A stretch of DNA of 64,000 bases from Patiria pectinifera (taxonomy: Eukaryota > Echinodermata > Asteroidea > Valvatida > Asterinidae), in NCBI GenBank assembly GCA_029964075.1, contig CM057129.1, positions 14,375,430 through 14,439,429 of the forward strand, read 5' to 3'. The notes beneath the pieces are model-generated. The model did no database searches, was not told the origin of the DNA, and saw nothing but the letters and a program-made list of their open reading frames with translations. Position numbers and translations under genes: made by a program. This document shows positions 9,281-63,186 of this stretch, piece after piece (within the stretch, counting starts at the first letter, position 1; every line of letters begins with the position of its first letter).

Positions 9281-9347
9281 ATGTGAAGATAAATGTACAT
9301 GTGGATGTTTACACATTCAATCAATACAGAGATCCCGTCATCAAGTG
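9281..9347 (+). CDS. NLR gene, small exon 6 before the NACHT exon
   Basis: After the acceptor at 9280 the phase-1 frame from exon 5 reads DVKINVHVDVYTFNQYRDPV, then meets TAA at 9349. A GTAAGC donor at 9348 removes that stop and leaves phase 2. The only matching acceptors before the NACHT reading frame are very close (exon starts at 9388 or 9397), implying an intron of only 40-49 nt. If that intron is not real, the gene has a frameshift here, or the NACHT exon uses its own start. Confidence 0.4.
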
Positions 9348-12300
9348 GTAAGCCCACAACGCAGCCTTTACCTCATGGAGAAGGCAGTGTAGCTAGCAAG
9401 ATACAGGAAGCGGCACTAGCTGAAGCTGCTGCTGATCAGTGCGAGGCGGCATTACGATCCTGGTACACCTCTACGGGCAGCTACGTTCAAATGATCCCAT
9501 GGGTTGATGATGACACAAAGCATATTATGGATATCTATACCAACCTACAGCTAGTAGGTGTTGGCAAAGAAGGGAAGATCAAGTCATATAAGGGGATATT
9601 TCTAGTTGAAACCAGGGAAGGTGTTGTTATCAGACGGATCATTCTGAATGGTCTGGCTGGTGTGGGGAAGTCCACCCTAATTGACAAAGTCACTTACGAC
9701 TGGGCCATGAAATGTGTTCGTGTGTTGCTGAAGTTCAAACTTGTGTTTGCTCTAAAAATGCACTCACTAGAACAAAGTTCTGAGCTCATTGATGCAGTCT
9801 TTGCACAGCTCTTGGATCGTGACACTCCCATAGATAGGCATGCCCTTACGTCTTACATCAATGCTAACCCTGAGAAGGTTCTCATTCTCTTAGATGGTTT
9901 TGATGAGTTCATGACCACCAACCTCAATGAGCATGCTTTCGGCTCCATCCTCAATATCCTAACCCGCAAGGAATGCAGAGATAGTTGTGTGGTTGTCTCA
10001 ACTCGCTCCTCTCATTTCAACAGATTGGCGAACAACTTGTTGGTTCGGAAGCCTTTCACTCATGTCAAGGTTCTAGGGTTTAGTGCAGAAGATGTTGAGG
10101 AGTATGTAAGGAAATTCTACATTGATGAAGAGCCTGAGAAAGCTCGGCAGCTTTTTGAGAGGATTAAGTCTTCTGATGTGTTACTTGATCTAGCCAGGAG
10201 TCCAATGCTGCTCCTGTTGATGTGTGTGTTGTGGAGAGAAGATTCTTGTCTCCCAGAGACAATGTTCCGCCTGTACAGTGAGGCACTGAGATACATATTC
10301 AAGCGGAAAGCAGACACTTCACCCGATGAAGTGTCCAGAGTAGTCATTGAAATTGGGAAGATTGCTTTCCATGGTCTGATTTCCCCAGTGCAGTTGCTTT
10401 CATTTGATGAGAGTGAGTTTGAGCGTACTGTGCTGAGCATGGCGATTAAAGTGGGTCTTGTCACCAGTCAGAGGGTCTTGAATGGTTTGATCATCCAGAA
10501 CAGTATTCAGTTCATGCACATGACCTTCCAAGAATTTTGTGCGGCTCAGTACTTTCAGAGCTTGTTTACAACTGACCCAAAGGAATTCCAGAAGATTCTG
10601 GAAAAACTAGAGAGAACGATCAAGAACCATCCAGCTGGTTTTGAGTGTCTTCTTCGCTTTTGTTGTGGCGACAACGAGGCATGCGCAAATCATGTCATTA
10701 AGGTGCTGAGAAATCCAGCCAGTGACTCGGCGTTGAAACTGGCCTTAGTGTGTTTCTTTGAGAGTCAGTCCAAGAGCTTGCCATGCCAGAACCTTGTAAA
10801 TGAAGTGTTGACCAAGGCAGTGTGCATTGAAGACTGCAACAGTGATGGTGTGAATGCATACATGTGGTTTGTGAAACAGATCATGGATCAGTCAGAGGGA
10901 AGGAGCAATGCTATCCTTGGCAGTGTAGAGGAATTGGCAATATGTAGATGTAACCTGCAGAGATGGGATGCATCGTTGACATATTGCATTCAGGGATTGA
11001 CTCATCTGTCAATCTTGATCCTCAAAGCATGCTCACTTACAGAAGGAAACATGCAACACATTGCATCATCTCTGGGCAACGCAGCCAACTTGACCGTTCT
11101 AGACCTCTCAGGCAACGAGTGTCTGGGTGGCTCATTGCCATCTTGGGTCTCTCATCTGCAGGCACTGAAAAAGTTGGAGAAACTGAAATTAGAGGACTGT
11201 CATTTGAACCGAAGGGATGTCCGATGCCTTGCTGCAACTGTTGGGCATATTGGCAATCTTCAGGATTGCACTGTCCAAACAGATTTGCATCGTCATTCCC
11301 CAAAGGATGACCTAGTCTGGCCCACTAACCCTCTTGTGAGTAGGACCTGTACAGAAACAAGTGGTATCAGACTAGAGATGATTGAGTGCTCATTGACAGG
11401 CACTGACATGACAGATATTGTCGAGGCAATGACCAAAAGAAGTGACTTGGCTGAGTTGATTCTCAGTAGAAATAAAGGGTTGAGTGGCTCGGCGGCTCTC
11501 TGGTTCAATCCTCTGAAACACCAGAAGTGCCTTGAACAGGTGGACTTAAGTGACTGTTCTCTGGTAGACACAGACATTGAACATATTGCCGAAACAGTGA
11601 GTGAGATGCCTGGTATGGCAGAACTGGATCTGTCGCAGAATAACTTGGGTGGATTGGGTGCTTCCTGGGCCCCCCACATGCAGGTCATGAAGCACCTGCA
11701 GAAGTTGAGCCTCAAGTATTGCTCACTTACGGGTGATGATGCAAAGCTGCTTGCAATTTCACTCAATAGCTTGGCCAACTTTGTTATGTTGGACCTTTCC
11801 TGCAATGAGTCTTTGGGTGGCTCTGCTGGCATGTGGGCACCTTACTTTGACCAGATGAGATCACTCCAACAGCTCTATTTGCGTCAGTGTGCACTGACAA
11901 GCAAAGATGTCAAGCACATTGCTGTGCCTCTGAGCAATATGGCCAATTGCATGGAGTTGAACCTCTCAAGCAACGAGCAATTGAGCAAGCATGCAGTCAC
12001 ATGGGCCCCTCATGTGAGGTCCATGCAGCATCTTAAGAGCCTAGTGTTGTTGGGTTGCAATCTGAACAAGCAAGATTTGAAGCATCTTGCTGCATCCTTC
12101 GGTGACATGCCAAATCTGGTGGATTGTTCAGTCAAGAGTGCTTATTTGAGTGGACGATTTCTTGTCCAGCCGACTGACACTGGCATTAGGCTTGACCTTA
12201 GTCAGCGTTCCTTAACTGGCAAAGATCTGGCCAGCATCCTTGGAGCAGTGAGCAAGAGGAATGACCTCGTAGAGTTTATGCTCAGCGGCAATGATTCACT

Positions 12301-13441
12301 AAGTGGCTCAGCAGAGTTGTGGTCCCCATACTTGAAGCAGTTAAAACATCTGGAACGGTTGGAATTACATCATTGTTCTTTGCAACGCACAGATATGGAA
12401 CACATTGCGGCCATACTAAAAGACATGGCATCTTTGATCAAGCTAGACCTATCTCTGAATGACACTATGGGAGGCTTGTGCAAATTGTGGTCACCCCATC
12501 TGAAACAAATGAAACATCTGCAAATGTTGGACTTGAGTTCATGTGCCTTGACAGGGGATGACATAAAGCATATCGCATCGTCAATGTGTGATATACCAAA
12601 CTTGACAGAGTTGAAACTCTCTCATAATGGTCCTCTTGGTGGCTCGGTGTCTTCATGGGCTGCTTCTGTGCAGTTGTTAAGCCACCTTGAGACACTTGAT
12701 TTGGATGACTGTAATATCAAAAGACAGAAATTCAAATACATAGCTGCATCAATCGGTCATATGGGAAACCTGACAAACTGTTCTGTCCGAAGTAATTACA
12801 TGGGTAGCAGGTTCCAGTGTCTCATTCAGCCAATCAGTTCTGGCATACAGGTTTACCTGAGTGAGCGTTCATTAACGGGTACTGATTTGGCAGATATCTT
12901 GGAGGGCTTAGGTGCAAGGGATGACCTGGTCGAATTGAGTCTTGTTGGTAATAACGCATTGGGAAACTCAGCAATACTGTGGTCCCATCAGTTGAAGCAG
13001 TTGAAGCACCTTGCAGTGTTGGTATTAAATCGGTGCTCACTGCGTGGTTCAGACATTGAACACATTGCCTTGTCATTGAGTGGCATGCCAGCCCTTCGTG
13101 TGTTAGAGTTGGCAGGAAATGCAGCTTTGGGTGGCGTGTGCGGAACATGGGCTTTGTATTTACGCCATGTACAGCACATTCAGAAGTTGCACCTGGGCTC
13201 TTGTTCACTTAAGTTTGATGATATGAAGCACATTGCCGAGGCATGTAGTATGATGCCCGAACTTTCAGCATTAGACCTATCAGGCAATGAGGCTTTAAGT
13301 GGCTGTGCAGTAGTGTGGGCACCATTCTTGAACCAACTACTACAGCTCCGCAAACTTGACCTCCAAGAGTGCTCTCTAACAGGTGAAGATAGGCAGCATG
13401 TGTGCTTGTCCGTGAATGATTTTACCAACTGTTCTTATTGA
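9293..13441 (+). CDS. NACHT-LRR (NLR) receptor, main exon
   Basis: Predicted cytosolic innate-immune sensor. The frame has no internal stop for 1,382 codons. From the ATG at 9293, residues 58-90 (STGSYVQMIPWVDDD) look like the conserved segment before NACHT in invertebrate NLRs. Walker A GLAGVGKST is at 120-128, Walker B LLDGFDE at 199-205, a sensor-like VVVSTRS at 233-239, and a winged-helix type FMHMTFQEFCAAQYF at 407-421. From about 550 to the end runs an array of leucine-rich repeats of the LxxLxLxxCxLTxxDxxHIA type, arranged in larger blocks. The true start is probably in the upstream exons, since their phase-1 chain leads here; the join near 9348-9396 is uncertain. A frame from 9388 with the upstream exons would give about 1,608 residues. 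The stop is TGA at 13439-13441. No C-terminal domain follows the repeats. Confidence 0.93.
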   Translation: MYMWMFTHSINTEIPSSSGKPTTQPLPHGEGSVASKIQEAALAEAAADQCEAALRSWYTSTGSYVQMIPWVDDDTKHIMDIYTNLQLVGVGKEGKIKSYKGIFLVETREGVVIRRIILNGLAGVGKSTLIDKVTYDWAMKCVRVLLKFKLVFALKMHSLEQSSELIDAVFAQLLDRDTPIDRHALTSYINANPEKVLILLDGFDEFMTTNLNEHAFGSILNILTRKECRDSCVVVSTRSSHFNRLANNLLVRKPFTHVKVLGFSAEDVEEYVRKFYIDEEPEKARQLFERIKSSDVLLDLARSPMLLLLMCVLWREDSCLPETMFRLYSEALRYIFKRKADTSPDEVSRVVIEIGKIAFHGLISPVQLLSFDESEFERTVLSMAIKVGLVTSQRVLNGLIIQNSIQFMHMTFQEFCAAQYFQSLFTTDPKEFQKILEKLERTIKNHPAGFECLLRFCCGDNEACANHVIKVLRNPASDSALKLALVCFFESQSKSLPCQNLVNEVLTKAVCIEDCNSDGVNAYMWFVKQIMDQSEGRSNAILGSVEELAICRCNLQRWDASLTYCIQGLTHLSILILKACSLTEGNMQHIASSLGNAANLTVLDLSGNECLGGSLPSWVSHLQALKKLEKLKLEDCHLNRRDVRCLAATVGHIGNLQDCTVQTDLHRHSPKDDLVWPTNPLVSRTCTETSGIRLEMIECSLTGTDMTDIVEAMTKRSDLAELILSRNKGLSGSAALWFNPLKHQKCLEQVDLSDCSLVDTDIEHIAETVSEMPGMAELDLSQNNLGGLGASWAPHMQVMKHLQKLSLKYCSLTGDDAKLLAISLNSLANFVMLDLSCNESLGGSAGMWAPYFDQMRSLQQLYLRQCALTSKDVKHIAVPLSNMANCMELNLSSNEQLSKHAVTWAPHVRSMQHLKSLVLLGCNLNKQDLKHLAASFGDMPNLVDCSVKSAYLSGRFLVQPTDTGIRLDLSQRSLTGKDLASILGAVSKRNDLVEFMLSGNDSLSGSAELWSPYLKQLKHLERLELHHCSLQRTDMEHIAAILKDMASLIKLDLSLNDTMGGLCKLWSPHLKQMKHLQMLDLSSCALTGDDIKHIASSMCDIPNLTELKLSHNGPLGGSVSSWAASVQLLSHLETLDLDDCNIKRQKFKYIAASIGHMGNLTNCSVRSNYMGSRFQCLIQPISSGIQVYLSERSLTGTDLADILEGLGARDDLVELSLVGNNALGNSAILWSHQLKQLKHLAVLVLNRCSLRGSDIEHIALSLSGMPALRVLELAGNAALGGVCGTWALYLRHVQHIQKLHLGSCSLKFDDMKHIAEACSMMPELSALDLSGNEALSGCAVVWAPFLNQLLQLRKLDLQECSLTGEDRQHVCLSVNDFTNCSY
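11362..13438 (+). repeat. Higher-order LRR blocks inside the NLR exon
   Basis: Three blocks start with similar segments: GIRLEMIECSLTGTD (11362), GIRLDLSQRSLTGKD (12182) and GIQVYLSERSLTGTD (12842). Each block starts with a leader, runs through several LRR pairs, and the first two end in a segment like HLAASFGDMPNLVDCSVKS. The first block is longer by about one LRR pair. This indicates internal duplication of multi-LRR units after they were already assembled in one exon. Confidence 0.75.
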
Positions 13442-19496: not shown

Positions 19497-21034
19497 CTAG
19501 TTGCGCAAAAGAATGAATTCATTCCTGGAGTCCGGCTCCAGGAATCGACCCGTGTTTTTGCGAGAGTTGACGAGATTTGGGTTGGGATACGTCTCCTCAT
19601 CTATTCCTTGCAAAATCCTGTCCACAACCTCCACCCCTTGCATGAAAGAATGGTCCTGGTTTGCAACCTCGTACCGCCATCCCCCGAACCGACCGCGGGA
19701 GTAGATGTGTTTTGCCTCTAACCAGGGTTGCACAATGTGGAGGACTTTTTCCCTTTCCAGAGAAGGAACTGGGTAGCCGCGATCTAGTCGGCGATAGTAT
19801 TTGGACACTACCATGTCAGCTGAAATGAAACCGTACGTCACCAAAGCCTTGACTGTTGCCTCGACTACGTTTGTCTTTGACCAATAGCTTGGGTCTGGCG
19901 CGTTCTTGGGTTCCGCCGCCTCGCACATCAGAGACCAAAAGGTGTCCGCCCTGGGCACGTGATCGTCAGAGTACGCCGAGAAAACTGTAATGCGGTAGAA
20001 CGGAGAATCGGAGTCTGGAAAGTACATCCAGGATTTGTCGGAGAGAATCTCAGGGGGTTGGCCAAGGAGTCCAATACCTATGACATGAGTGTGAGAGTAT
20101 ATGAGCTGCGATGTGAAGTGGTTCATTTGTGCCAGAGATGGATCGTTACCATGAAGTAAGTTTGCAAATTTGTCCAAGGGTGCCGTCGATATCAACGTGT
20201 CATAAGTCAATGAACGGTGCGAACTCCCTTCAGTTCCTATGTTTATTGTTTTGGTGTCAAAATTGACACTCGTCACTTTGCTTCGGAACTGAAACCATTC
20301 CCGCGGTACCAAGTTTGCCACTCCGCTCCAGATATTCCCGGTGCCGTTGAATCTTGGGAAGCGAAAGTACCGGTTGGGACCCCACCCCGAGTCCTCCACC
20401 GGAGTCCCTTGATCGAAGGCTTTAATCTTGGCTTGGATTTTGTTGACGTCGGGTACGGCGACTCGCTCGTCCACCCAGACCGAGTTCATTCTGGTGGTGT
20501 TGACTGTCCACACCTTCTTGTTGTATTTCCGCATGAACACTTCGCAGAGGCCGACCCCGAATTTCTGCAAAAGCCACTGGTCGAAGTTGCCGGGTTTGGC
20601 CTCCGGTGGGTTGCGGGTGATCTCTTGGAGACCTTCCAGGCTTCTTTTCTGGTCAGTTTTGTCCATGGCTTCGATGTTGTTCTGAACTGGGTAAGGGATG
20701 AATCTCCTTTTGCCGTCTGATCCCATCATGAAGGCAAAGGCCGCGCGGACTCGCTGGTTCCAATGTGGTACTGCACGATCCAGCGTCTTGTCGAAATAAT
20801 CGTAATGAGAGAAGACGACATGGCCTCCCATGTCCCAGAGAAAGCCTTGATCGTCTCGCTCAGAAGAAGCCAGTCCGCCCGGTAGAGCTTCTTCTTCTAG
20901 GATGGTAACCTTGGTGTTAAACTGGTCTCTGAGTTCGGCCAGTCGTCGTGCTGCGCCTAGTGCCGTTGGACCCGAGCCGATGATGACAATATGAAGTGAC
21001 TTTGCGACCCGGCGTTCATGCTTGTTGAACTTGC
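19497..21034 (-). CDS. glf: Mutase exon 2 (whole catalytic domain)
   Basis: The exon starts after TTTTGCAG (acceptor bases at 21036-21035), takes two bases to complete a glycine codon with exon 1, and stays open to the stop at 19497. It holds the complete FAD-binding and mutase fold, so the intron separates the membrane anchor from the enzyme. Confidence 0.92.
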
Positions 21035-24000
21035 CTGCAAAACAAATTTAAAAGGAAAAAAAAAATCAATCATCAGTGGGCTCCTAAACATTTAACATAC
21101 ACGCACAGTCATCAATGAAGGGGAGGTTTAGGTTTTTATTCGGAAAGAAAATGAAAATGGCTGATTACGGAGCATTAGCTGCGTAAATGACAAGTGCTGA
21201 TTACGGAGCATTGGCTGCAGCGTGAAGCACAGAACAGCATGTTCTACAAAAAGTGATGCTGTGTTTTATATATAATAGTGCATTCATAGATGTGTTAAGA
21301 GATTAGCATGGTCCATATCAATAATTCACGACATAGGCAAGAGGGAGGGGAGGGGGTTTGAGGTGGGGGGAGGGGGATGGTACCATCCAATGCATTAATG
21401 AATAACATGTAATGAATAACATCACAGACGTTAGGCCTGTCTATCAAAGAGCAGGTGTTTGATTTTGATGCTTAATTTCCATGTCTGAAAGGTCTATTCC
21501 TGATTCTAATGTTATAGGTTTTCCCAGTCATTTTAACACTTGTATCATGCGAATTCCCTATATCGATACTTTGATTTCGTCCCCGAACATCGCCAAGCTC
21601 AATTCTCAATTTGAATTTCAGAAAGCCACCACTAGATTTCATTTAAGGTTCATAATTCAAATTGTAAGCATACTGATTCGTCCTAAATTTGTGAAATTCG
21701 TCTGGTGTAGCAATCGGCGTTGAATTGAAAAAGCAAATTCGTTTTTTGTCATTCGTTTTAATGTTGCTGTCATTACATTTCGTTTCTAGTGACATAGAAC
21801 GTTACGATAAGAAAATGTGCCCAATCTTTGCTACACAAGACTAATTACACAAATTTAGGACGAATCGGAATGCTAAAAATGTGAATTATACTGAACCTTA
21901 AATGAAATTAGTGGTGGCTTTCCGAAATTCATATTGAGAATTGAGCTTGGCGATGATATTAAAGTATCGATATAAGGAATTTGTGTGGTACAAGTGTTAT
22001 AATAACCGGGAAAACCTATAATTGTATATCACAGAAAAGAGGATTGAAAACTTACAGCTAACTACTGTTATTTTTACATTTAAGGAAATATATGTTGAAA
22101 CTGTAATTTGATTAGGGCGCACAATTCTTCAAATCCAAAGATTGGGCACATTTTCTTATCGTAACGTTCTATGTCACTAGAAACGAAATGTAATGACAGA
22201 AACATTAAAACGAATGACAAAAAAAAACCGAATTTGCTTTTTCAATTCAACGCCGATTGCTACACCAGTCACAAATTTAAGACGAATCGGTATGCGAAAA
22301 GTTTGAATTTTGCTGAACGTTAAATGAAATCTAGTGGTGGCTTTTTGAAATTCAAAATGAGAATTGAGCTTGGCGATTTTCGGGGACGAAATGAAAGTAT
22401 CGACATAAGGAATTCGTGTGATACAAGTGTTAAAATAACCGGGAAAACCTAATCTCGGCAATATCAGGATGTAATGTCCCTTTAATTCTAAGTGAATAAG
22501 ACAAGGTCACTGTGTGGGCGTTTTTCAGTCTATCATTTTTTTCCTCAAATCTAGAGTGCTTTGTCCTGACGGCAACTTTCCATATCATGAACTTGCACGG
22601 ATACGATACCTATATCCTGTGAAAGGCCACTAGTATTTTTTCCAGAAGAGATTGTACTTTTTCGTGGGAGTGCATAAAAGCTCTGTGTAGATGTTGAAAA
22701 CATGTCAAGGGTTAACCACGCACTCCATCAATCCTTGTTTTTATGGTCTGTGAATCCTTTAGTCGTAACAACAAAAGCATAACTTCATATTTTGAATGGG
22801 GAGTGCCGATAAAATCCTAAATCCAGGCACACCATATTAACTACAAATGCACCCTTGTCACGACTATTTCTTTTTTTATTTTACGGATTTTTTTTTGGCC
22901 CCCCCCCCGTAGAACCGCCACTGCATACATGCTTAGCCAACATCCTACCATTTAATGCATTGGGCAATGCAGAATTTCAAGACGTAATTCATGATTTTGC
23001 CCCTAATCTCAATGATGCTGATACTACTGCGAATACAGCCTCTGACCCCCTTACTTTTTAATTTACCTCAGTTTACAAATGTATACGATAGACCCCGCAA
23101 ACCCTGTACCAGATACCCATCACTGTCGCTACTCCACCGAAAATGATTTCTGTAGTCCCCTTTCTAACATTGATGGCAGCCAGAAACTAGAATTCGTTCA
23201 TTTTAATATAAGAAGCCTCCCCAAAAACTTCGATAATTTTAAACTACTACTTCAATCATTAAGTACATTTTCAGTTATTGGTCTCTCTGAGACATGGCTT
23301 AAAGACGACATTACAACGAGGTTCTCTTTACCGGGGTATACAGATAAAAATGGTGGCGGCGTTGCCCTTTTTGTGCAAAATGATATTCAGTATAATATAC
23401 GCCGTGATCTGAATTATTCAAACAACTCAGTGAAATCACTGTTTATTGAATTAAAACAAACATCATCCAAAAATATGAGAATTGGTGTTTTATACAAACC
23501 TCCACAGGTTTTATATAATGATTTCATGAATTATTTGGAGAATACGATCACCTGCATTTTTTACTGAAAATAAACATAGTATTCTTGCTGGAGACCTTAA
23601 TATTAACCTTCTAAATTATGAAGATAATACTTCAGTTCAAAATTTTATTGACATTATGTTTTCACACTCATTTATTCCACTCATAGATAAACCCACAAGG
23701 GTAACCCGAACTTCAGCTACTCTAATTGACAATATATTCACCAACGTTTTACCGATACCAGACTCTGTTATTTTAACTTCGGATATTACTGACCATTTTC
23801 CTATCATCACCTCACTACCAATGGCCAATATTTCCCCCAAAATCAATAGAAAAGCCAACTATCGCTATAATACTAAAGATAATTTAGATGAACTAACACA
23901 AGACCTAAACTCGGCGGACTGGTCTTCTGTACATAACTCTCAAGACCCAAACGTAGCTTTTAATCATTTTACAAATGTATTTAATTATCATCGTGATATA

Positions 24001-27000
24001 AATGTTCCGTGTAGAAACAAGAAGAACAATAAGGCCAATCCCAAATTACCTTGGATCACACCATCCCTTTTTAAATCAATCAAACTAAAAAATAAGCTGT
24101 ATCACAAATTTATTTCTAAACGCAATGAAACTAACCATATCAATTATACTACATACAAAAATATTCTAACTATACTGTTTTACGCACTGCTAAGAAGACT
24201 TACTATTGCTCTCAATTTGAAAAAGAAAAAAAAAACCATAAAAAATACTTGGAAAACTATAAACCATATCGTTCATATAAACGCCCCTAAAACAAGAATC
24301 TCTAATATTACAGTTAACGGAAATCCAACTGATGATCCTCAAATTATGGCTGACAATTCAATAATTTTTTGGTAAACATAGGACCAAATCTGGTAAGAAA
24401 TATTCCCTAATTCAAAAATGCATTCACTGATTATCTCCTTAACCCAAACCCACATTCTTGTTATTTTCATCCAACTACAACAGAAGAAGTTACTGATATT
24501 ATAAACAAATTACCAAATAAAGTTAGTAGTGGTTTTGATTCAATTAATTCCTCTGTCCTTTAACAGACTCTCCCTGCCATTATAAAACCTCTTACATATG
24601 TTATTAATATTTCCCTACAATCTGGTATAATAGTACCAGATAACCTAAAGACAGCTAAAGTTTTTCCTATTCATAAGGCTTCGGACACCGACCAAATACG
24701 CAACTATAGGCCTATTTCAATCTTGCCCCATGTTTGAGAGAGTTGTTAACATGCGTACACTTAATTGTTTACGTAAATTTAATATCATTAATATCAAACT
24801 TCCAATTCGGGTTTCGAGCTAAACATTTCACACAAGGTTGTCACAGGATTTGAAAACTCAGAACACACCCTTGGTATTTTCCTCGATTTCTCAAAAGCTT
24901 TTGACACTTTAGATCGCAATAAATTGTTATATAAGCTTAATTATTACGGTATCCGGGGAATCCCTTTAGCTTGGTTTCAAAGTTATACCTGTCTAATAGA
25001 AAACAATATGTATCAGTAAATGACACTCCCTCAGATATACGACCCTTGACATGTGGAGTCCCTCAAGGATCTATTCTTGGACCACTATTATTTCTTTTAT
25101 ATATAAATGACTTTGTCAATGTCTCTCGACATTTATCGTGTATTTTATTTGCCGATGATTCAAATTTATTCTTCAGTAATAAAAACATTAATGAATTGAT
25201 TGACACCGTAAATTCTGAGCTTGTATTGATATCAGACTGGGTAAAAGCCAACAAACTCTCGTTAAATATAAAAAAGACAAACTGTATGTTGTTTAGTAAT
25301 TCTTTGCAATCATAACCAAGAAATATTCTTATTGATAAAAACAAGATTACTGTGACCGAATGTACTAAATGTCTTGGTTTATATTTTGACAAGCTGATTT
25401 ACCCGATAACAACAAAAACAAGCTCTACGAATTATTAATCATACTAGCTACCTTGCCCATACAGATACGTTTTTTAAACAAGATAGGATTAGTAAAATAA
25501 ATTATTTATTTTATTATCAACTTGGTATTTTTATGTTTCAGCTAAGAAAAAATAATCTTCCAGAATCCATTTCATCGATATTTTACAGTAACTGAACTTT
25601 ACATACCCATTTTACTAGACAGGCCAATGACTTCCATTTGCCTTTAGTAAGGACATCCATTGCAAAGAAAAGTGTTACATTTGAAGGCCCTATACTTTGG
25701 AATTCCCTTGCCAAATCTATTAAGAAATCGCCATCCATTTCTACATTCAAAGTTAAGATCGAACAATTTATTTTCAACAAATATTCATGCTCGTGAGCCC
25801 TATTATTATCCCTTGTTGGTACAAATCCTTTCTTTTGATTTATTTATTAAGTTACCCTGTGCTTCTAGTAATGGTTTCAGCCATATCATTAATTTAATTT
25901 ATTTGTTTCTATTTTTCTCGCATAACGCCATTGTCTATTTTGAGCCCTGTACAAAATGTGGCTTTATATCATTATTTTAATTTTTCTTTAATATTCTGTT
26001 AAATTCATCGTCTGGTCATTCAGTTTATTATCATTCAGCTTTTAGCATGACATTTTTTTTTTATTGCCATTTTTCTTTAATGCCCGTACACAAACTGCAG
26101 TTAATACTCACCTTTCAGTTCACTGTTAAAGGGAATATACAACATTTGCAAACATCAAAAAAATAAAACTATCAAGTTTTTACGAAATACCTTACTAGGA
26201 TGTTGGTAAATGACAGTATAAATTTGCATCCTGTAAAATTCTGGCACCTGGTGTGAAGTCATTTTCAAGGAAATGGTATTTTTGTGTACATTTCCAACTG
26301 TTTGAAAAACCTAACTATGTTTCAACTTCTGCTCCAAAATACCATTTTTTCCCAGTCCAAATTCTGTTTGCTATTGGTTACATGTTCATGAACGGGTGCA
26401 GGCCAGTTACACTGGTTCCATTACCTTACAATTTTCCGGCATCTATAAATTGATCCATTTTATCCTTAGTGGAGTCAGGGAACCAGACTACTTGAACATT
26501 TTTGTTTTTCTTGGTTTTTCCAGCATTTTCGAACAAAAAGCTTCAGACATGTCAGTGTAACAATAAATTTGATATATTTTACTAACCCCTCAAATAGTTC
26601 ATTTCTGAAAATAACAGCAAAGACTAATGATGTACATTGCCTTTAAATTCATCGTCTTTGTCTTTCAGTTAAATTTCTCTTTGCATGTACTATTGCTTTA
26701 AGCATGCCATTTTTTTTCTCCATTGCCATTTTCTTTAGCGCCAGTTTGCATTTTTTTGTCTATTATGGCCCTAGCTTACTTCCATATTAAATTAAATTAA
26801 ATCAAATTAAACTAATTGTTTTAATGCTTCTTTCCAATGATTCATACTCATTGTCCCTGTCATTTACATTCTCGTATTGTCTATGTTTATACGGAGTCCC
26901 TTTTTGTTGTTATTATTTACCTTGTTAATTGTGTTATTGTTTTTGTTGTTCAGGGGACTCGCACTCGACAAGCTTGCTTTTTGTGGGACCCCTGCATCTC

Positions 27001-28318
27001 AGTCTTGGTATTAATACTATTACATTATTTCTTATCTTATTTGTTTTAACATACCTAATTTATTTTGAAGAATTATTTGTATATTTTTTGCATTGTACCA
27101 TATGAGGTGGAAGAAAGTAAAGTAAAGAAAAAAAGAAGCTCTCGGTCTACTTTATTTAATGCTGAACAATCTAGTTTCATATATTCATCCGCGCAAATGC
27201 ACCGTTCATAAAAACGAAGGGGTACAAAACGATCCCCGAAAATTGTACGCACAACGTTCTTCACGGTGCGTGAAACCGAACAGTTCCAGGGTCCCTTACA
27301 GGCATAAATGTTGCTTTATGTGGGTAAAAAGGGACACAGAATGGAAGATAATGAACAGAACTTTCATATCAAACTTCATTTTATTTAAAACGATGATGTT
27401 TTGAGTATTTTGTAATTTATTGAAAATGCATGTATTTCGTCGCTGTGTGCAGTGAGTATATGGGTTGAAGCCTTACCATGCACCTGTATTGATCTATAAA
27501 AATAAATAGTTCTTAAATATAACGCTTGCTTCCAGCTAGCCCCATAAATGTGGCCAATTTACTGGACTACCTCCGTAAATAAAGGCCACACTTCCACCAT
27601 GTACAAAAACATGTTGAACTTTGTCAAATTTGGATTTTCACATGTTGGCTTAGTATGTAGTTTATTTTTGCTTTAGAAGCATATTCACCCTCTTTATAGG
27701 CTAATCAGAAAGTGCTGCCCTTTTCAGATGTCTGTTTTTTGTGAAATTGCTGAAATTTTTTTGATACGCAAACGTGTGGTAGCCATGGGGGGGGCAAGGA
27801 CAGCCCCCCATGAAACCTTGTCGCGCCCCCCCCCCCCAGTCGCCTCCCCCACACTGAGATTTTGAGTTTCTAAAAAAAATTATCATTGATCTACATGACG
27901 CTCCCCATGAAATGTTCCAGCCCCCCACTGAAAAATTCCTGGCTACGCCACTGCGCAAACGTATGCAAACGAATTTGGTAATTTCACGAAAAACAGACAT
28001 CTGAAAAAGGCAGCACTTTCTGATTAGCCTATAAAGAGGGTGAGTATGCTTCTAAAGCAAAAATAAACTACAAACTAAGCCTAAATGTGAAAATCAAAGT
28101 TTGACAAAGTTCGACATGTTTTTTGTACATGGTGGAAGTGTGGCCTTTATTTACGGAGGTAGTCCAGTAAATTGGCCACATTTATGGGGCTAGCTGGAAG
28201 CATGCTGGAAGGAGTACTTACCGTAAGTGTCGCTGTGATAAGCAACGACAATCACTGTTAGCAGGAAAACTGCCGAAGCTAGGATTTGAATGGTCAACCT
28301 TTTACAAAAGATCGCCAT
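19497..28318 (-). CDS. glf: UDP-galactopyranose mutase with N-terminal membrane anchor
   Basis: Exons 28318-28222 and 21034-19497 (minus), phase-1 intron, 544 residues. The enzyme interconverts UDP-galactopyranose and UDP-galactofuranose using reduced FAD. Exon 1 starts at an ATG in a good Kozak context (ACCATGG) and encodes MAIFCKRLTIQ followed by a hydrophobic helix (ILASAVFLLTVIVVAY), a type II signal anchor. Exon 2 carries the FAD site IIGSGPTALG (about 50-59), MGGHVVFSHY (101-110, His104), FRFPRFNGTGNIW (Arg257), SPFYRITVFSAYS (Arg380), RRLDRGYPVPSLERE (Tyr453) and GRFGGWRYEVANQDHSFM (Tyr487, Asn491). These match, from memory, the substrate-binding residues of fungal mutases, including both key arginines. 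The stop is TAG at 19499-19497. All key residues are kept, so it should be active. The odd point is the anchor, since known mutases are soluble and cytosolic. The alternative call of a generic amine oxidase is unlikely. Confidence 0.9.
21514..22452. mobile_element. Fold-back element with 320-bp arms
   Basis: 21514-21831 and 22136-22452 are inverted repeats of each other, starting TAGGTTTTCCC and ending GGGAAAACCTA. A partial third copy (21848-22022) lies between them in the right-arm orientation. No transposase frame. The element lies in the mutase intron. The short open frames within it are arm translations. Confidence 0.75.
22453..23078. other. Mutase intron, nothing recognised
   Basis: Non-coding sequence with a poly-C run and a GTAGAACCGCCACTGC word at 22905-22925 of the widespread GCCACTG type. 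No gene seen. Confidence 0.45.
23079..25800 (+). pseudogene. Broken non-LTR retrotransposon (jockey/CR1-like LINE)
   Basis: Pieces in order on the plus strand: endonuclease (HFNIRSLPKN, GLSETWLKDD, GVLYKPP, then after a frameshift GDLNINLLNY and SDITDHFPI), a linker (23850-24370), and reverse transcriptase (IRNYRPISILP, FLDFSKAFDTLDR, LTCGVPQGSILGP, ILFADDSNLFF). A C-terminal segment follows (FHLPLVRTSIAKKS, GPILWNSLAKSIKK) ending near 25800. Several frameshifts and in-frame stops inactivate it. It is antisense to the mutase gene, inside its intron. Confidence 0.9.
25801..27150 (+). repeat. LINE 3' region, interrupted by a TIR element
   Basis: T-rich sequence after the LINE coding part. Words at 25998-26100 (AAATTCATCGTCT, TAGCATGACATTTTTT, CATTTTTCTTTAATGCCCG) recur in the same order at 26644-26745 on the far side of the inserted 510-bp element. 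The LINE probably ends near the A-rich GTAAAGTAAAGAAAAAAAG at 27117-27137. Confidence 0.45.
26130..26642 (+). mobile_element. 510-bp TTAA element, copy in the LINE 3' region
   Basis: Same family and orientation as 5991-6500. Flanked by TTAA at 26126-26129 and 26643-26646, with intact terminal repeats. It inserted into the LINE tail and is therefore younger than it. Confidence 0.85.
27528..28203. mobile_element. Fold-back element next to the mutase exon 1 donor
   Basis: Arms 27528-27776 and 27957-28203 are inverted repeats of about 245 bp (TGCTTCCAGCTAGCCCC to GGGGCTAGCTGGAAGCA). The right arm ends about 18 bases from the splice donor of mutase exon 1. The centre holds a separate nested element (27776-27953). 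No coding capacity. Confidence 0.8.
27776..27953. mobile_element. CAGTGGCGTAGCC-type element with 9-bp target duplication
   Basis: The G/C-rich unit is flanked on both sides by CGCAAACGT (27767-27775 and 27954-27962), a perfect 9-bp direct repeat. It is the reverse complement of the unit at 1552-1697, and the right end reads GGCTACGCCACTG. The left end is slightly decayed. It sits inside the fold-back element, so it inserted later. Confidence 0.75.
28222..28318 (-). CDS. glf: Mutase exon 1 (signal anchor)
   Basis: 97 bases from the ATG (28318) to a GTAAGTAC donor, leaving phase 1. It encodes 32 residues: a basic N-terminus (CKR), then about 17 hydrophobic residues, then HSDTY. The positive-inside rule predicts the catalytic domain on the lumenal side. 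The frame is open further upstream (ATG at 28486), but the longer N-terminus looks like translated 5' UTR. Confidence 0.8.
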
Positions 28319-63105: not shown

Positions 63106-63186
63106 TAGCTCGGTGGTCAAGTGGTAAGACGTCTGCACTAGAAAGCAGGGGGTCGTGGGTTCGAGCCCCATCCGAGTGATTTTTTC
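63106..63186 (+). tRNA. tRNA-Ser(AGA)-like Pol III unit (degenerate tRNA or SINE head)
   Basis: GCTCGG (63108) pairs with CCGAGT near 63172. TGGTCAAGTGGTAAGAC resembles an A-box/D-arm. CTAGAAA resembles the tRNA-Ser anticodon loop (AGA). GTGGGTTCGAGCCCCAT is a proper T arm with B box. A TTTTTT Pol III terminator follows at once. The anticodon stem is imperfect and the long serine variable arm is missing, so a tRNA-derived repeat is as likely as a working tRNA gene. Confidence 0.45.

Follow-up and report, generated by a model that had tools for sequence, protein, structure and literature searches.

We lean toward the view that the gene under study encodes an active, lumenal UDP-galactopyranose mutase (UGM) with a predicted type II membrane anchor, that it became a mutase-only gene by losing a DUF3431 domain, and that DUF3431 is a galactofuranosyltransferase of the GT-A fold. 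The gene is on the minus strand of the window, i.e., the whole stretch of 64,000 nucleotides of Patiria pectinifera DNA that was analysed, and has the following features:

28222..28318, minus strand: exon 1, with a start codon in strong context (ACAACCATGG) and a phase-1 donor, GTAAGT
21035..28221, minus strand: phase-1 intron of 7.2 kb
About 23046-25796, plus strand: reverse-transcriptase-like element, inverted within the intron and spotted by eye in translated frames
19497..21034, minus strand: exon 2, a complete UGM ending ...NTGRFLEPDSRNEFILLRN and a stop codon where the fused paralogs go on into DUF3431
19497..19544, minus strand: C-terminal tail FLEPDSRNEFILLRN and stop codon; the same place in a fusion on contig C15 reads FLNQPLEYEFVIAHYNE...

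Exon 2 is contained in an open frame of 516 codons (19497-21047, minus strand), and its protein matches the Aspergillus fumigatus UGM, UgmA (PDB 3UTE), from residue 17 to 503 of the query and 10 to 500 of the chain with an E value of 1.5e-114 (phmmer). The homology to this enzyme, and to the PDB mutase 4DSG, is full-length, and the FAD motif and the GGH loop are held in common. Equivalents of the substrate-diphosphate arginines of the fungal enzyme, R182 and R327, and of its His loop, G61-G62-H63, are all present, and 19 of the 21 mapped active-site positions are kept, the exceptions being S93, where the window protein has Ala, and N203, where it has Gly. The preliminary description had called exon 2 a complete mutase with both key arginines, and that is what these comparisons find. 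Bacterial long-form UGMs (80 loci among the matches listed) are 33-46% identical to the window protein over the matched part; NCBIfam names its best matches 'hypothetical protein' PRK07208. Between the window gene and a twin on contig C21 dN/dS is 0.168 over 482 codons, and purifying selection acts between the two genes. We predict that the product is an active FAD-dependent UGM.

Counted along the joined protein, the first in-frame Met of exon 2 comes at residue 101, past the FAD motif GxGxxG, and an in-frame stop is present just 5' of the exon 2 acceptor. Therefore, a full-length mutase needs a coding exon upstream. Within 20 kb upstream, 29 phase-1 first exons are mechanically possible (donor score of 5 or more, with generic, unfitted scoring matrices); the one at 28318-28222 ranks first of the 29 on the sum of donor and start-context scores and second on donor score alone, and it is the sole candidate of at least 20 aa whose hydrophobic segment exceeds KD 1.6. 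Its sequence was found at a single place in the whole 613.5 Mb genome, so exon 1 is not repeat-like, and the idea that it is a repeat is unsupported. Joined to exon 2 in phase 1 (exon 1 end ACG/GTAAGT, exon 2 acceptor TTTTGCAG/GC), it would give a protein of 544 aa.

The product of exon 1 consists of MAIFCKR, the hydrophobic stretch LTIQILASAVFLLTVIVVA and YHSDTYG. The hydrophobic segment is 19 residues long, with a KD peak of 2.53 at residues 8-26, and the most hydrophobic part of exon 2 reaches KD 1.22. The protein thus has one N-terminal hydrophobic segment and a basic N-tail, as signal-anchor proteins require, and the prediction that exon 1 encodes a membrane anchor is well supported.

Two of the fused UGM paralogs in the same genome, on C15 and on C22 (7.077 Mb), are preceded by a first exon built in the same way, i.e., MA..., basic residues, a hydrophobic segment and a phase-1 donor, and the segment is at residues 8-26 in all three UGM anchor exons. 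Similar anchor exons are present 5' of six of the 13 stand-alone DUF3431 genes; four of five stand-alone DUF3431 exons examined have a strong phase-1 acceptor, and acceptors of other phases occur too. A search for exons of this kind over 398,108 strand-bases (both strands of the window and of 14 fetched stretches picked for holding these genes) returned nine distinct exons, and all nine lie, on the same strand, upstream of an exon for UGM or DUF3431. Since the background stretches, the window excepted, were chosen for carrying family genes, the opposite strands of the same stretches are the fairer control, and they gave none. A chance first exon was rejected because every exon that the search accepted precedes a member of the UGM/DUF3431 family.

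The pattern among the UGM genes is patchy. An anchor exon is present for three of the seven genes with at least 3.8 kb of readable upstream DNA and was found for none of the five with 1.5 kb (L086-L090). A looser, any-phase scan of 3.8-4 kb upstream found no anchor exon for the mutases on C2 or C22 (7.70 Mb), and gave one weak phase-0 candidate for that on C9, which is not counted as support. These gaps, and the fact that exon 1 was placed by sequence with its splicing predicted, would fit a gene to which exon 1 is foreign, with the true first exon elsewhere and an ordinary cytosolic UGM as the product. We regard this as highly improbable, given the need for an upstream coding exon, the first rank of 28318-28222 among its 29 competitors, the similarly built exons of the two paralogs and their absence away from the family in the strand-bases searched. 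We expect, then, that exon 1 and exon 2 are spliced together in vivo. In the preliminary description, exon 1 joined exon 2 in phase and added a type II membrane anchor; the phase and the anchor have held up, also against the paralogs, and the type II orientation is a prediction, to which we return below.

The P. pectinifera genome has at least 22 near-full-length, stop-free UGM places, a number that is a lower bound. In 20 of the 22 genes, PF11913 (DUF3431) follows in the same frame (for L090 with an E value of 5.8e-13), and this C-terminal domain sets them apart from Aspergillus UgmA. Another 13 places have DUF3431 without UGM. This family, mostly mutase-DUF3431 fusions, lay beyond what the window alone could show. 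DUF3431 is absent from the window gene and from its 91% identical twin on C21. At the window gene there is no PF11913 match and the reading frame stops at 19497. A DUF3431 remnant downstream was also considered and rejected, as none was detectable (best score 0.1 bits). The window gene is therefore a relative of the UGM-DUF3431 fusions and itself no fusion.

A tree favours a fused ancestor for the window gene and its twin, with DUF3431 since lost. The tree included 18 of the 22 near-full-length genes of this genome (C20:18547775, C20:18532904, C20:20402450 and the C9 gene were left out, and the short frames L119 and L115 were dropped), together with 16 bacterial and two viral rows hand-chosen from 82. 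The placement of the Aspergillus enzyme relative to the bacteria is unsure (86/57, long branches), and we therefore draw no conclusion about where the animal UGM gene came from. PF11913 was found in none of 14 control genomes, to which we give little weight.

What does DUF3431 do? The portions of the literature that we examined give no function for DUF3431/PF11913 and record the domain in Aspergillus. An AlphaFold model of one viral DUF3431 domain is confident and resembles GT-A glycosyltransferases. When the DUF3431 alignment was searched against PDB sequences, it matched solely G-protein alpha chains, with E values of 0.015 and above, which were taken as chance and discarded as relatives. 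The mutase gene glf is present at 59 of the 79 viral-contig DUF3431 loci among the matches listed; after clustering at 70% identity it accompanies the domain in 28 of 42 such clusters, in 22 of them within 60 bp. TIGR00031 is the top hit for all 18 viral glf ORFs tested, and 13 score above its cut-off. Two control sugar genes, queries taken from the DUF3431 locus L192, are near glf at only one of 13 and one of 74 loci among the matches listed; for the reverse count, the query was the glf of L210, itself a DUF3431 locus. Among bacteria, two planctomycete loci with a long UGM have DUF3431 within 3 kb.

The model, the fusions and these neighbourhoods make a galactofuranosyltransferase family with the GT-A fold the likeliest reading of DUF3431, and the domain fused to the mutases is probably the enzyme that attaches galactofuranose to glycans; we infer both its transferase activity and its Galf products. 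It may instead be some other enzyme of the same glycans, e.g., one that transfers a different sugar or modifies them, because the GT-A match is generic, glf was not found at 20 of the 79 listed viral loci (nine of the 20 without full flanks), and the domain also occurs beside other sugar genes, such as the GT10 and epimerase of L192. That alternative is possible, if on the unlikely side, and is opposed by the fusion to UGM in 20 of the 22 animal mutase genes, by the adjoining classical glf in viral contigs, by the planctomycete pairs and by how seldom the control genes are near glf. The galactofuranosyltransferase assignment is the one we use here.

The charge difference across the anchor is negative, which favours a lumenal C terminus, in seven of eight anchors, weakly so (-1) for the window gene, and the C-flanks of the five DUF3431 anchors are just two to 11 residues long. 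Four cysteines are invariant in the DUF3431 domain of 15 of 15 animal copies, and PMC5519750 predicts the C terminus of an Aspergillus nidulans DUF3431 protein to be outside the cell. The mutase could nevertheless be anchored and face the cytosol (N-out/C-in, like microsomal P450s), making UDP-Galf beside a UDP-Galf transporter. The stretch that follows the anchor is basic (KFNKHERRVAK), NADPH reduction of FAD would be easy in the cytosol, and the review PMC7278926 places the mutases of eukaryotes in the cytosol, with UDP-Galf then carried into the Golgi. We consider this arrangement unlikely, as the anchor charges, the cysteines of the partner domain and the A. nidulans prediction all speak for the opposite one. 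Less probable again is cleavage of the segment as a signal peptide, which would leave a soluble mutase, either lumenal or secreted: the N-tail is short and the sequence has a possible V-x-A cleavage site, but signal peptides usually have a hydrophobic part shorter than these 19 residues. The predicted signal-anchor exon argues against a soluble, cytosolic mutase. The suggestion of a lumenal, Golgi-type enzyme has thus gained support from the charges and the cysteines, and a lumenal orientation remains our prediction.

Golgi type II glycosyltransferases have a short basic tail, a single hydrophobic segment, a linker and a catalytic domain. The window protein is similar in all of these, except that its catalytic domain is a flavin mutase and not a transferase. 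Presumably, an N-terminal signal anchor of this kind would hold the mutase in the secretory-pathway membrane with its catalytic domain in the lumen, where UDP-Galp would enter through an ordinary UDP-galactose transporter and be turned into UDP-Galf on the spot. Since UDP-Galf would be made in the lumen, no UDP-Galf transporter would be needed. The usual family form would be UGM and DUF3431 in one chain, with an anchor exon identified in some of the genes to date, and DUF3431 would act as the transferase either fused or stand-alone. The wider proposal is that anchor-mutase-DUF3431 chains are bifunctional and both make and use UDP-Galf in the lumen, that DUF3431 is an unrecognised galactofuranosyltransferase family of animals, fungi, phages, planctomycetes and giant viruses, and that the window gene, descended from a fusion, serves as a mutase-only source of lumenal UDP-Galf; we see the case for this whole as evenly balanced.

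The Galf transferases of fungi and Leishmania belong to the GfsA and LPG1 families; DUF3431 would share their donor, UDP-Galf, and goes under a different Pfam family name. The UGM/DUF3431 family supplies an animal's candidate genes for both Galf steps, that of the mutase and that of the transferase, and a domain of unknown function gains a testable activity. The portions examined of the literature on these enzymes name no echinoderm UGM or Galf transferase. Galactofuranose itself occurs in starfish gangliosides, according to PMC3509529, so the preliminary description was correct on sea-star galactofuranose; its statement that known mutases are cytosolic also agrees with the review PMC7278926. 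The same review has galactofuranose as not reported from mammals. The predicted N-terminal signal-anchor exon distinguishes the window gene from Aspergillus UgmA, and a lumenal mutase, if true, would break the rule in that review by which UDP-Galf arises in the cytosol and is transported afterwards.

The bacterial and viral long UGMs among the matches listed display a different pattern. A hydrophobic N-terminal extension above KD 1.8 was found in none of 82 (80 bacterial and two viral), a loose count because several bacterial frames were anchored on the wrong place (L017, L018, L043 and L051 among them) and because only extensions of sufficient length were scored. DUF3431 is in the 3-kb flanks of two of these 82 loci. 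An alignment query of viral contigs found no eukaryote-type UGM beyond two loci already known. A protein of 769 aa from pithovirus LCPAC202, accession A0A481Z5S5 and named 'Flavin containing amine oxidoreductase', has a DUF3431 fold inside it, and its name and length suggest that the N-terminal part is a UGM.

The mutase gene of the window is predicted to consist of two exons on the minus strand, and a transposon-like stretch lies in its intron. Lamin-like frames were also seen by eye in the window; together with an NLR-type frame, the size of the genome and the presence of beta-Galf (galactofuranose) gangliosides in starfish, they would be consistent with an echinoderm.

Features of the window
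28318-28222, minus strand: exon 1, joined in phase 1 to exon 2
21034-19497, minus strand: exon 2, a single exon encoding the whole UDP-galactopyranose mutase (UGM)
23046-25796, plus strand: endonuclease/reverse-transcriptase fragments in the mutase intron, on the opposite strand, non-LTR type by eye
9293-13441, plus strand: NLR-type-looking gene (NTPase, then leucine-rich repeats), one 1382-aa open frame, by eye
63106-63180, plus strand: tRNA-like gene (ARAGORN, incomplete anticodon call; Rfam tRNA match of 43 bits)

The preliminary description took exon 2 to encode a complete mutase, and this is borne out by its match to Aspergillus fumigatus UGM (AfUGM; E 1.5e-114) and by the retention of 19 of the 21 mapped AfUGM positions, the exceptions being S93 (Ala) and N203 (Gly). 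An in-frame TAA stop lies immediately 5' of the exon 2 acceptor, and the earliest in-frame Met of the exon falls past the GxGxxG motif, at residue 101 once the two exons are joined. Therefore, exon 2 alone cannot produce a full-length protein. The in-phase junction with exon 1 also holds as predicted from sequence, as does the hydrophobic segment in the putative exon 1 product. The 20 kb upstream offer 29 candidates for a phase-1 first exon. Of these, exon 1 is first by summed score and second when only the donor is scored, and no other candidate of at least 20 aa has a hydrophobic segment. Its sequence was found at a single place in the genome.

A search of the 613.5 Mb assembly with the window mutase found 28 UGM places, of which 22 are stop-free and nearly complete, both counts being lower bounds. 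The open frame is 516 aa long in the window gene, 543 aa in its 91% copy on contig C21 and 722-797 aa in the remaining 20 genes. The added C-terminal part is DUF3431 (PF11913; E 5.8e-13 and 49.5 bits at locus L090, cut-off 25). PF11913 itself occurs at 37 places, which were grouped by coordinates: 20 are in frame with the 20 long mutase genes, four adjoin mutase fragments and 13 stand alone (12 clustered on C20 at 9.55-9.65 Mb and one on C16).

A tree built from 18 of these 22 genes places the window and C21 genes as sisters and the C15 fusion as sister to the pair (support 100/99); the deepest own-genome branch, on C2, is also a fusion, with support of only 80/77 for that fork. The simplest reading is that the ancestor of the window and C21 genes lost DUF3431, so that the present window gene derives from a fusion by loss of the domain. 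The window protein ends in ...RFLEPDSRNEFILLRN*, and C15 has ...RFLNQPLEYEFVIAHYNEELDW at the same point; no recognisable DUF3431 remnant was found in the DNA downstream of the window gene. Because dN/dS between the window and C21 genes is 0.168 (dS 0.20, 482 codons), the mutase-only form looks to be kept by selection.

Two fusions, C15 (MATKSRK-SITIALALTLASVVVYVCC-...) and the C22 gene at 7.077 Mb (MAARFNR-VFVSLTSVMAVLLFVSIVI-...), are preceded by the same kind of first exon. In these two and in the window anchor (MAIFCKR-LTIQILASAVFLLTVIVVA-...), the hydrophobic segment occupies residues 8-26 and the donor is in phase 1. Such an exon is present in three of the seven mutase genes with at least 3.8 kb of readable upstream DNA; the 17 kb preceding C21, the 3.8 kb preceding C2 and the 4 kb preceding the C22 gene at 7.70 Mb yielded none, and the C9 fusion has only a weak candidate (MGFRCRLGGTLSFLICVGLYLSLF..., L384:3108-3248, plus strand) in phase 0, not phase 1. 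Five further mutases, each with only 1.5 kb upstream, gave none. A background scan with fixed criteria covered both strands of the window and of 14 other stretches (398,108 strand-bases), and it is not a neutral background since these other stretches were chosen for holding mutase or DUF3431 genes. It returned nine distinct anchor exons; each lies 5' of an exon for a mutase or DUF3431, in the sense orientation, and the opposite strands gave none. Three precede mutases and six precede stand-alone DUF3431 genes (6/13); four of the five stand-alone DUF3431 exons inspected have a strong phase-1 acceptor, along with acceptors in other phases.

The lumenal enzyme proposed earlier stands in part: given the anchor, the catalytic domain is probably lumenal. 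The charge difference is negative in 7/8 anchors, and four cysteines are invariant in all 15 animal DUF3431 domains, whereas an alignment of 39 viral and one bacterial domain has no Cys among its near-invariant columns; total cysteine is alike in animal and microbial domains (4.1 and 3.8 per 200 aa). N-glycosylation sequons exceed those of microbial relatives in the mutase (3.3 vs 2.1 per 500 aa, n=18 and 16) and in DUF3431 (1.85 vs 1.13 per 200 aa), a modest difference that points to the lumen. Against it, the window anchor is nearly charge-balanced, a eukaryotic mutase prefers NADPH, and eukaryotic UGM is described in PMC7278926 as cytosolic, as the preliminary description had it of known mutases, with a UDP-Galf transporter.

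The GGH of the His loop is kept in the window, C21, C15 and C2 genes, and 11 of 18 mutases have GVH (G62V). Three fused C22 paralogs (7.077, 7.093 and 7.70 Mb; L102, L108, L123) have lost further active-site residues, including R182 (to K or Q) and R447 (to L), and some members of the enlarged family may therefore retain DUF3431 while having little or no mutase activity.

Viral DUF3431 proteins of 460-490 aa carry an extra N-terminal part (L138:4212-5672; similar in L137, L139 and L179-L183). That of L138 matches PF03407 (Nucleotid_trans), and the protein is perhaps a double glycosyltransferase. Pithovirus LCPAC202 has a 769-aa protein (BFVD A0A481Z5S5), named a flavin-containing amine oxidoreductase, with a DUF3431 fold inside; its length is within the range of the animal fusions. 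Genes may have passed between giant viruses and eukaryotes.

Long UGM of the eukaryote type occurs widely among bacterial contigs (L003-L082); the best NCBIfam matches of the window protein are PRK07208 models titled 'hypothetical protein' and TIGR00031 is barely matched, which suggests an annotation gap. The preliminary description's mention of Galf in sea star glycolipids agrees with PMC3509529, in which beta-Galf gangliosides occur in starfish.
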